Part shown: positions 15,015 through 56,244 of the stretch, piece after piece
Layout of the letters: each line of letters opens with the position of its first letter
Position numbering within the stretch: position 1 is the first letter of the stretch
Source of the DNA: Natrinema halophilum
Lineage (GTDB): Archaea > Halobacteriota > Halobacteria > Halobacteriales > Natrialbaceae
NCBI RefSeq assembly: GCF_013402815.2
Contig: NZ_CP084880.1
Location: forward strand, 124,001-188,000
Reading direction: 5' to 3'
Length of the DNA: 64,000 bases
Program-made: the position numbers and the translations under genes
The notes under the pieces: model-generated
The model's input: only the letters and a program-made list of their open reading frames with translations
Told to the model about the DNA's origin: nothing
The model's database searches: none

Positions 15015-15069
15015 GCGAGTCATAGAAAGCGTCACGGACGAAGCAACAGGGTACGGAACGTTAGCGCGG

Positions 15070-15102
15070 TTTGAGAAGTGAGCAGGTCGTAGAGTTAGTT
15101 TG
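15070..15102 (+). repeat. Dispersed 33-base repeat, copy 1
   Basis: This stretch and 45411-45443 match at 28 of 33 positions in the same orientation (core agcaggtYgtagagttaSttt). In both places it follows a protein gene by 50-60 bases and is otherwise unexplained. It may be the edge of a decayed mobile element or a fragment of a lost gene on the reverse strand (reading ..TLRPAHFSN / ..TLQPACFSN). Confidence 0.5.
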
Positions 15103-15170
15103 AAGTGATGCCCATAGCCCTGCTCAGCTAGAGCTACGCAACGGAATTTGATGAATGTTGGGAGCGTGAG

Positions 15171-15204
15171 CGGACGGCGACGCTCGTTAGGGGGTCGCCG
15201 TCCG
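15171..15204. repeat. Perfect 11-bp inverted repeat
   Basis: cggacggcgac and its exact complement are separated by 12 bases. It stands between the FMN reductase and the three-hairpin repeat and may be a terminator stem or part of a decayed insertion element; there is no T-run after it on either strand. Confidence 0.55.
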
Positions 15205-15320
15205 GCTCCACGCGACAAGTGCTTCGCTTCGAGAGATACAAGCGATTCTTCGCTTATTCGGCGTTGAATCCGCTCATCAATCGATCTGGCACTGAGTACA
15301 CCAGATTGCTAACAGTAATT

Positions 15321-15405
15321 CAGACCCGCCGGCATCCACGAGAGTTACACTCTCGTGCGGCCCATCGGAACGCTTTGCGTTCTGAGGACGGCGAAGCCGC
15401 CGCGG
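15321..15405 (+). repeat. Three-hairpin repeat element, copy 1
   Basis: Three consecutive stem-loops: cacgagag..ctctcgtg, gaacgc-TTT-gcgttc, and ggc-GAA-gcc. A copy with about 85 percent identity lies at 47128-47212, where the stems are kept but the TTT and GAA loops are exchanged between stems 2 and 3. Preserved pairing with altered loops points to a structured nucleic acid rather than a coding sequence. It may be the end of an IS200/IS605-type element or a non-coding RNA. Confidence 0.6.
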
Positions 15406-15642
15406 GTCGCGGTTGACGAAACGCTGTCAGGATTAACGGCGATCGATCGTGGATGTCCGCTGCAGTAGATCTCGACACGAAACTCATTCTCGATGTCGCG
15501 CTCTTTGGATGGCGAGGTACTCGTCTAGATCATTCACCAATCATACGTATGCTACTCGTGCTTGCAGGGAACAGTTGTTGAGACAACGATTGATCTATCT
15601 TCCTCCACACGATACTCCGGAGAGGTGATTTCGTGTCATTTC

Positions 15643-46864: not shown

Positions 46865-47681
46865 CCCGCACGAAACTGGGCCAACCAACATCAGCGGATG
46901 TTGGCGGCCATTCGTTCGGTTGTGACTCGAGTCTCGGTCCCGAATTGCGGCTCTTTTCCCCGATCGCTATTATACGCCGAAGCCCATTGCACTCATAGCG
47001 GCACTCCGTGGGCTAATCTGCTGGGCGTGTTCGCTTCAGAAGTCGCGAGCAATTCTTCGCACTTTTAGCGACGGACGCACGCATCACATAATCTGGCAGT
47101 ACGTACATCGGCTGGCTGCCAGCGTACCAGACCCACTGACGTCCACGAGAGTTACACTCTCGTGTGGCCCATCAAAACGCGAAGCGTTCTGAGGACGGCT
47201 TTGCCGTCGCGGCCCAGTATTGATGTTATTCCTGACAATATCGATGGGGATTGGAATTGTGCATGTATTACAATTTCCTCGACTAGAGGGTGATTCTCGA
47301 TATCGCAGTCATCGGTCGGTGGGGACGAATCCAGTTGCTGTTTTCGTTTACCGATTGGCCGCGGAATCGACCCCATCTGGGCCGTATCTCTCGTCGGTGG
47401 AGACGGCCGTCTGACTTCCCACTCTCGAAGAGGACTGACCGGGTCAGTTCGGTTACAACGACCAAGACCTGATTGAGAAGGGATTCATTCCAGCAAAATG
47501 CGTGTCGGCCGCTTCCAAAACTCGTGGAAGAGCTGTCGATCGACTGTCAGCAGGTGTTTTGTGTGGTCTGTGCATTACTACAACATCTAGTACCTATACT
47601 AATCAATACCATTATAAATATCGGCGGAAATGCGAAACTAGACGGTGACGACAGTCCATCAACGTCATACGAGGTGACATC
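46865..47681. other. Gap holding a repeat element, no convincing gene
   Basis: Apart from the three-hairpin repeat (47128-47212) nothing is assigned. Frames such as 47152-47376 overlap on both strands without family resemblance. It lies just beyond the right end of the TnpB-element RNA region and may contain older element debris. Confidence 0.45.
47128..47212 (+). repeat. Three-hairpin repeat element, copy 2
   Basis: cacgagag..ctctcgtg, aacgc-GAA-gcgtt and ggc-TTT-gcc follow one another as in copy 1 (15321-15405), with loops of the last two stems exchanged and paired changes such as the ggcgaagcc/ggctttgcc stem ends. Flanking sequence differs, so the similarity is confined to the element. 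Confidence 0.6.
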
Positions 47682-47781: not shown

Positions 47782-49029
47782 TTACGACACGGCTTGTTCT
47801 CTCGTGTGAAACATCCCGCTCTCGCGGTCGAACAAGTGTACCGACGGCTGTGCCACACAGCCGTTACTCCTATCCTCACCGTGAGGACTCGGAGTTATCT
47901 TCTGTCGCATATTCTCTGCCCCGTTGCAATCCGCGTTTCCGACTAACCCGCACGACGAGCAGACGTACAACCCACGATGTTTGCGGTTGGACTTCGTGTC
48001 GTCACCACACTTCGAGCAGGTCTTTGAGGTGTCCCACTCGTTCTCCTTCGACACCTCAACACCACGTTTTTCGCCTTTGTATTCGAGGTACTGGTAGATG
48101 CGGTCGAACGCCCACGTATGGAGTTTCTTGTTTCCCGTCTTCCCCCAGTCCGACTCTCGCACGTCTTCGGGCCAACTCACTGCGAGCGTTCCAACATCGC
48201 GTTCGATGCACTCTGTGATGATGGTGTCTGCAAGCGTGGTAGAAGTGTGTCTCACGGTCTGTGAGTTTGCGACGCGCCCACATTGACTTCTCAGACGGGC
48301 CGTTCTCACCTTCCGTGTCGTACTCGGCACGTTTGAAGTAGTGTTTGTCCTGCTTGAGTGAGTTGCCGGGATACAGGACGTACTCGTCAGGGAACGCGAC
48401 CGTGGCGATATTCGTGATACCGAGGTCAATACCAGCCACTTCGTCGCCTGCTGAGTCGTTCGTTTCGAGACTGACTTTGCAGACAAAGTGTAGTTCCCAC
48501 TCGTCGCCGTTCCAGACCGCGCGAACGTTCTGTACTTTATTGACTTCTGTAAGGTCTACGTCGGGACGAGTCTGGTACTCACAGAGGATGAAGTCCGAGA
48601 AGTGTTCTTTGAGGTTCTTCCCCTTCCTGAGTCTGACTCGATTGTTCCGGGGTCGTGTTTGAACCCGTCTGCTTTGAACGTGATCGTGGAACGTGGTCGT
48701 TCGTCGCCGTGTTTGCGGTAGCCGGGTGGATTCGCCTTGTCGTCTTTGTGTCGCAGGTCGAACCATGACTGGAAAGCGTCAGAAAGTTCTTCGATGACTT
48801 TTTGACTGGATTGTGCATTCAAGTCTTTCCAGCACGCTTGGTTCTTCATATACGATTTGAGCGGACCTTCGTCTGGGATTTCACCAGTTGCGTCCCATAC
48901 GCGGTCGGCTGTCCAGCGTGCGACGTTCCAGATTTTCGAGGCGGAATCTCCGAGCGAGTCAAGGCCATCGCAGACCTGCCGGTGGTTCTGAATGGAACCA
49001 ACGTAGGTACGAGTGGCCTGAATCGCCAT
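47782..49029 (-). pseudogene. tnpB: TnpB (IS1341-type), full length but two frameshifts
   Basis: About 415 codons. N-terminal part: ATRTYVGSIQNHRQVCDGLD to SWFDLRHKDDKANPPGYRKH. A frameshift near 48650 leads to NNRVRLRKGKNLKEHFSDF and the first RuvC motif GDEVAGIDLGITNIATV (catalytic Asp). A second near 48235 leads to LADTIITECIERDVGTLAVS, the zinc finger CSKCGDD..CSSCG and the final NADCNGAENM. All catalytic segments are readable; only frame is lost. No TnpA neighbour. Left flank (47682-47749) holds a structured RNA-like region. Confidence 0.85.
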
Positions 49030-55373: not shown

Positions 55374-56244
55374 AATCTCGAAATTGTTGTGAAAAGAGAA
55401 AAGGTTTTCCGCCCATTATTCAACATTTATACCATTTTATACTGTATATGTCCGTTCGATTATTAATATTGTGGCATACGTATAGTGTGGACGGCGGTGA
55501 TTGCTCTACTAGTCCCAGAACGAAAGCGATCACCACGGATTTCTACGTGAGACACTAAAAGTAGTTGCTGCGCATGGTTAGGGGAGAAACCACTCTTTGT
55601 TGCGGTATCGCTCGACGGGGGCGGGTTGTCGGCCAATCCTACTCGAGAGAGTGCAGTCAGATAGCCGTCGAAATCGACGAGAAACACAGTACCGGTGAAA
55701 ACGTGACTCACGGACGATTGGTCGAGAAACGCAGCGGTTAGATCAGTGATTCGGCGACTGAAGGCTGCGACGTCGAAAATCGGAATCGAGTCGATGTCTC
55801 TTGTAGTATCCCCCAAATCCGTTCGCTATTGATCCTGCCGGCGGACACATTAGTTGTGATCCCTGACGACTTCGCCGTCCTCTGAAAATCCCGCTGCGGA
55901 TGTGGGACACGGGAGCGAATTGTTCGTGAACGACTGCGGGGCTAGAACGGTGACAGCTACCCGACGTACTCGTTGCCGGATTTTTCGATCAGGCTGTTCG
56001 ACGTCGCCTGTGCGAAGAATCGACCGTGTCACTCGTAGCGAACGGTCGGTCGCGTATCACCATTTACTCACGGTCAAGCGATGTACAAATTTCGTCATGC
56101 AGCTCTCGCTGAGTCGGGCTGCGAGCGACGTAGCTACCTCATCACTCCGATTTGCTTGTTTCGCAATATAGTTTCTCGAGGTGCTGCGGTACCGACAGAA
56201 ATCGTGTTAACGTATCAAACTGAAAGTGACGGTGAGACAGAATC
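55374..56244. other. Gap with a doubtful frame
   Basis: A reverse frame at 55463-55816 (TTG start; DIDSIPIFDVAAFSRRITDL, then VFTGTVFLVDFDGYLTALSR) might be a small protein or decayed sequence; I do not recognise it. Nothing else is supported between UspA and the dehalogenase. Confidence 0.35.

Follow-up and report, generated by a model that had tools for sequence, protein, structure and literature searches.

A hairpin-rich repeat in a 64,000-nucleotide stretch of Natrinema halophilum DNA (hereafter the window) raises the question of whether it encodes an RNA, marks the end of an element or is a mobile unit in its own right. A sequence-only reading had described two copies, at 15321-15405 and 47128-47212, as a three-hairpin unit of about 85 percent identity. 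Both copies are present and share 84% identity. Their stem-2 and stem-3 loops are exchanged as claimed, with TTT/GAA in copy 1 and GAA/TTT in copy 2, but the loops vary freely in all relatives and the swap is thus no signal. Translation of the flanks places the array within interrupted IS6-family transposase genes (Pfam DDE_Tnp_IS240). Uninterrupted IS6 copies read GACCCGCCGAC-GGC-NNN-GCC-GTCGCGGGTC, with the codons DPPTA.PSRVA. The third stem (about 15388-15403) is host IS6 sequence because these uninterrupted copies already have it. The repeat consists therefore of stems 1 and 2 only, and the net insert is 56 bp. A third, decayed copy on the minus strand had been overlooked. The features of the window are as follows.

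15334 to 15389, plus strand: element copy 1 (covariance model 74 bits, E 9.6e-17; empty-site comparison)
15337 to 15357, plus strand: stem 1 of copy 1
15365 to 15385, plus strand: stem 2 of copy 1
15060 to 15520, plus strand: decayed IS6-family transposase gene broken by copy 1 (blastn with intact IS6 aligns 15060-15331 and 15387-15520)
47141 to 47196, plus strand: element copy 2 (covariance model 74.1 bits, E 9.1e-17)
46962 to 47649, plus strand: decayed IS6-family transposase gene broken by copy 2 (tblastn and blastn with intact IS6)
55880 to 55935, minus strand: decayed element copy 3 (IS6 homology breaks at 55879/55936; 56-bp insert ending ..AGAGGAC)
55571 to 56055, minus strand: decayed IS6-family transposase gene broken by copy 3 (blastn with intact IS6 copies)

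All three IS6 remnants in the window are broken at the same IS6 nucleotide, as placed by blastn with intact IS6 (15331/15387, 47141/47194 and 55879/55936). The remnant around copy 3 is strongly decayed, and its element scores below the covariance-model cut-off. The E values of about 1e-16 for copies 1 and 2 come from a model that had both among its 12 training sequences. RNA folding gave z-scores of -5.0 and -3.6 for copies 1 and 2, with equally good folds in 0 of 200 shuffles. The genome comprises three contigs, of which the 425-kb contig C2 carries the window, and contains nine covariance-model matches. A TnpB (OrfB_IS605) fragment at 48230-48490 on the minus strand is roughly 1 kb away from copy 2, on the opposite strand, and shows no sign of a link to the element.

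The unit spans 54-60 bp and follows the order GTYC-stem1-GCRGCCCATC-stem2-GAGGAC, with variants of the linker and a free stem-1 loop. Stem 2 is usually AGAACGC-NNN-GCGTTCT or AGAAATC-NNN-GATTTCT, and the ends GTYC...GGAC are complementary over about 4 bp. The stems are maintained through compensating changes, which supports the selection on folded structure that had been suggested from the two copies. Among 92 distinct sequences, aligned by fitting to the covariance model, 17 of 18 stem pairs show double-sided changes and 98.3% of cells pair; the variation of the outer stem-2 helix is under-sampled here, as most named loci were retrieved with a pattern that fixes it. The covariation score was reached by none of 500 shuffles, and slid controls pair in 34-49% of cells. 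An earlier alignment of 12 elements gave the same covariation picture. Four-hairpin versions of 106-107 bp share the IS6 insertion nucleotide of the two-hairpin form (L103, L104, L111 and L113), and may be composites, ancestors or the equivalent of SMR-A, a small mobile repeat of Haloquadratum walsbyi.

Strong covariation and a recurrent position within IS6 could also point to a functional RNA of the IS6 gene, such as a small RNA, an omega-RNA-like scaffold, an intron or a translational bypass signal. We consider this highly improbable. The unit is missing from intact IS6 genes and turns up in either orientation in unrelated genes, at IS ends and between genes, and no Rfam family matches within the window. 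The unit is not the unrecognised element end that was initially proposed, and a small RNA is unlikely; what inserts into many hosts is a complete two-hairpin mini-element. Any structural role had been made dependent on covariation among further copies and on copies beyond protein-coding genes; covariation is present, and many copies lie outside genes.

The element inserts whole and without target duplication at CGRC|GNCG, and one nucleotide accepts either orientation. Across 49 non-redundant site clusters, the base at -1 is C in 45 and the base at +1 is G in all 49. Comparison with empty IS6 and fibrillarin sites gives a net insert equal to the element. No target is duplicated, for the right end reads GGAC at GAC, GGC and CAC targets alike; a duplicated GACG target was ruled out by the GGC targets, where the right end still reads GGAC. 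Opposite orientations were found at one IS605-end nucleotide (L072 versus L099), and at L215 two elements lie head to head, the second placed at the end of the first. A preference for palindromic or hairpin targets was not found in the 49 site clusters (median percentile 0.45, KS p 0.53). Several single hosts are nonetheless palindromic, with insertions into palindromes near IS605/PATE-type ends at L070, L098, L099, L175-L177 and L200.

A near-palindromic target centred on CG, CG in both junctions, the lack of duplication and the use of both orientations at one site might also be produced by conservative site-specific recombination of double-stranded DNA. An IS607-like serine recombinase with a 2-bp CG crossover would recombine a circle joined as GGA-CG-TYC with the central CG of CGR-CG-NCG, the double-stranded sequence to be cut being GGACGTCC, and a single-strand (Y1) transposase gene would be unnecessary. 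This route appears unlikely, as the mechanics of double-stranded DNA make a 56-bp circle very improbable and the strong conservation of two hairpins would be unneeded. A survey covering Y1 genes tied no recombinase gene to the element.

The hosts are diverse. At L070 the unit lies in the left-end palindrome of a TnpB, and at L200 in that of a complete IS605 element with tnpA and tnpB; further copies occupy PATE-like ends, other positions in IS6, intergenic DNA and cellular genes. The suggestion that copies might border tnpB genes thus holds at L070 and L200, but several other kinds of host are used as well. On a maximum-likelihood tree of 50 IS6 genes, built with the insert removed, insert presence requires 17 changes, as it does when labels are shuffled, and at least 10 changes are imposed by supported branches. 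Because the insert is scattered on the tree like a shuffled label, the element has entered or left the IS6 hotspot on many occasions. Part of the scatter could stem from recombination between IS6 copies. A single ancestral insertion in IS6, with at least 10 changes forced, is unsupported by the tree. The fibrillarin gene retains an intact 120-bp site in 27 of 29 genomes of the genus, and carries a 54-bp element in two.

Insertions within protein genes include copies of 54, 57 or 60 bp that are in frame. The hosts of in-frame copies are the following.

TrpB: L281 and L285
TsaD: L332
Fibrillarin: L109, L115 and L248
MinD/ParA-type ATPase: L323
NAD(P)H-hydrate dehydratase: L271
ABC ATPase: L280
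Histidine kinase: L239 and L256
PEBP-like protein: L264
UvrD/PD-(D/E)XK protein: L297
Long open reading frame without assignment: L107 and L112
TnpB: several

Most in-frame hosts were confirmed by Pfam, and the encoded peptide usually ends AAHQN....SED. Cellular-gene insertions mostly have lengths divisible by three. The frame is kept in 11 of 14 such insertions compared with 6 of 33 elsewhere (Fisher p 1.6e-4), with classes set by hand, TnpB hosts omitted and a one-base correction that brings L271 and L332 to 57 bp. The reading frame is broken at L288, L289 and L309. The in-frame peptides are presumably translated, and their hosts presumably essential in these species. Splicing or bypass is unneeded because the cellular-gene copies are open in frame, which also speaks against the functional RNA considered above. 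An intron or bypass element is rejected on the basis of these open copies and of the absence of the unit from intact IS6.

The element is widespread among haloarchaea. The covariance-model search of haloarchaeal genomes that the sequence-only reading had proposed returned matches at E up to 0.01 in 119 of 125 Natrialbaceae genomes, and at E up to 1e-4 in 134 of 155 genomes sampled across the class. Among the 80 matches listed in named genome contigs, all belong to haloarchaea or to MAGs so labelled, one being labelled only Euryarchaeota. A Haloquadratum MAG carries the element (L246). Matches also occur in 23 plasmid records, which are haloarchaeal by organism name and mostly have no annotated feature under the match. 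None of the viral contigs matches the exact stem-2 pattern.

The most probable explanation, to which we assign a probability of roughly 0.7, is a non-autonomous REPIN/SMR-A-like haloarchaeal mobile mini-element that is moved in trans, probably via single-stranded DNA. The element encodes no enzyme. We infer single-stranded transposition in trans from the size, the conserved hairpins, the precise ends and the lack of duplication, and movement itself is read from sequence comparison. The strand left single during replication would fold into two hairpins. These would be recognised by a trans-acting transposase, most probably a single-strand HUH/Y1 enzyme (IS200/IS605 or RAYT), which would cut after GGAC and paste after the CGRC of a new target. 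Insertion into IS6 or IS605 hosts would disrupt the host element, whereas in cellular genes mostly in-frame insertions would survive. The right side of the target is conserved and near-palindromic, a feature that IS605-type single-strand insertion would not predict and that counts against it.

Y1 transposases are common in Natrialbaceae, yet of the 20 listed genomes of this family that lack any Y1 gene, 18 contain matches to the element. The data thus lend no support to a need for a Y1 gene in the same genome. An autonomous version was not found among 80 element loci, nor was a transposase linked to the element across these and 31 Y1 loci. Scanning the 31 Y1 loci recovered a strong match near the Y1 gene at L200 and L215, the L200 copy having inserted into the end palindrome of the IS605 element. 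In the genome of the window a single Y1 transposase was found (L097, G000:C1:3443176-3443484), and it may be inactive because of an in-frame TAG.

The element could alternatively be a terminal-only PATE, in which the left and right ends of a core-deleted IS200/IS605 element are fused and mobilised by its TnpA. IS605-derived examples of 52 bp are known from Haloquadratum (PMC3119063), and the similar size and two-palindrome layout fit this idea. PATEs have no inverted terminal repeats though, in contrast to GTYC...GGAC here, and none of the 80 loci holds an IS605 element bounded by the two hairpins. At the 31 Y1 loci all model matches were to whole two-hairpin copies, and the copy at L200 is an insertion in a left-end palindrome. 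We regard an origin as a terminal-only PATE as improbable.

The mini-element moved in trans that we favour resembles several known families. SMR-A (HqIRS42/43/55 of Haloquadratum walsbyi; Dyall-Smith et al. 2011, PMC3119063) is about 110 bp long, has prominent inverted terminal repeats and was described as 'enigmatic' in its mobilisation. Both are haloarchaeal, lack a transposase, and have inverted ends and no target duplication. Many SMR-A insertions lie in near-terminal palindromes of IS605 elements or PATEs (PMC3119063), and such cases occur here too, without enrichment over the 49 clusters. The 106-107 bp four-hairpin form is close to the SMR-A length of about 110 bp (PMC3119063). The common form, compared with SMR-A by description only (PMC3119063), differs in its 54-60 bp and its very short (about 4-bp) complementary ends. 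Unlike that of SMR-A (PMC3119063), its host range takes in IS6 genes and, through in-frame insertions, cellular protein genes.

CGTC-tagged REPs (Di Nocera et al. 2013, PMC3733652) likewise are short palindromes that carry CGTC as an unpaired tag on the outside and form inverted dimers; they are sometimes intragenic and have no dedicated transposase. The outer ends of our element, counting the flanking C or G, read CGTYC on the left and GGACG on the right, i.e. CGTCC on the other strand. CGTC-tagged REPs were reported from bacteria however, where they reach far higher copy numbers (PMC3733652). The families CGTC-1 to -4 have an 8-9 bp stem starting with AT pairs and a CCA tail (PMC3733652), neither of which is found here; stem 2 on the tag strand is CTCAGAACGC, and no CCA tail follows. 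REPINs (Bertels and Rainey 2011, PMC3116915) share two inverted hairpins with outer tags, and movement in trans through single-stranded DNA has been proposed for them. REPINs have GTAG-type tags and rely on RAYT genes, whereas no RAYT gene is tied to the element here.

Rickettsia palindromic elements (RPEs; review PMC10969869) are palindromic mobile DNA found in frame in unrelated cellular genes, and those inserted in cellular genes are translated. RPEs are about 150 bp and bacterial (PMC10969869), in contrast to the 54-60 bp archaeal unit with its CGRC|GNCG target and its additional mobile-element hosts. The element appears to behave like SMR-A, CGTC-tagged REPs and RPEs, and we do not claim strict membership in any one. 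A broader proposition, for which we see even odds, is an archaeal family, spanning the class, of two-hairpin elements that are site-specific and lack a transposase. Such a family would parasitise IS6 and IS605 and repeatedly place translated peptides of 18-20 residues within essential proteins (TsaD, fibrillarin, TrpB), as an archaeal counterpart of RPEs with enzyme and chemistry not yet known. A two-copy oddity has become a defined, widespread archaeal mobile element. As its ends, target and structure are defined, the way in which small mobile repeats of haloarchaea are mobilised, so far 'enigmatic', is now testable. The in-frame copies would provide natural examples of mobile DNA read as protein within archaeal enzymes that are presumably essential.

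Additional observations concern the wider sequence context of the element. An IS6 remnant (L169) has its 5' palindrome joined straight to the central palindrome via one element, as expected of recombination between two element copies in one IS6. Genome G055 contains about 50 element copies inside a longer repeated host, with at least 90 bp of common flank on each side (L180-L194). Intergenic copies from several genera lie near the recurrent motif gggactgaaaggggc (L238, L242, L254, L259, L284, L151 and L172). The element also recurs at TGGC|GGTGCC, or close to it, within another dispersed repeat (L100-L102, L153, L232, L245, L246, L252 and L299), a host that spans several genera including the Haloquadratum MAG.
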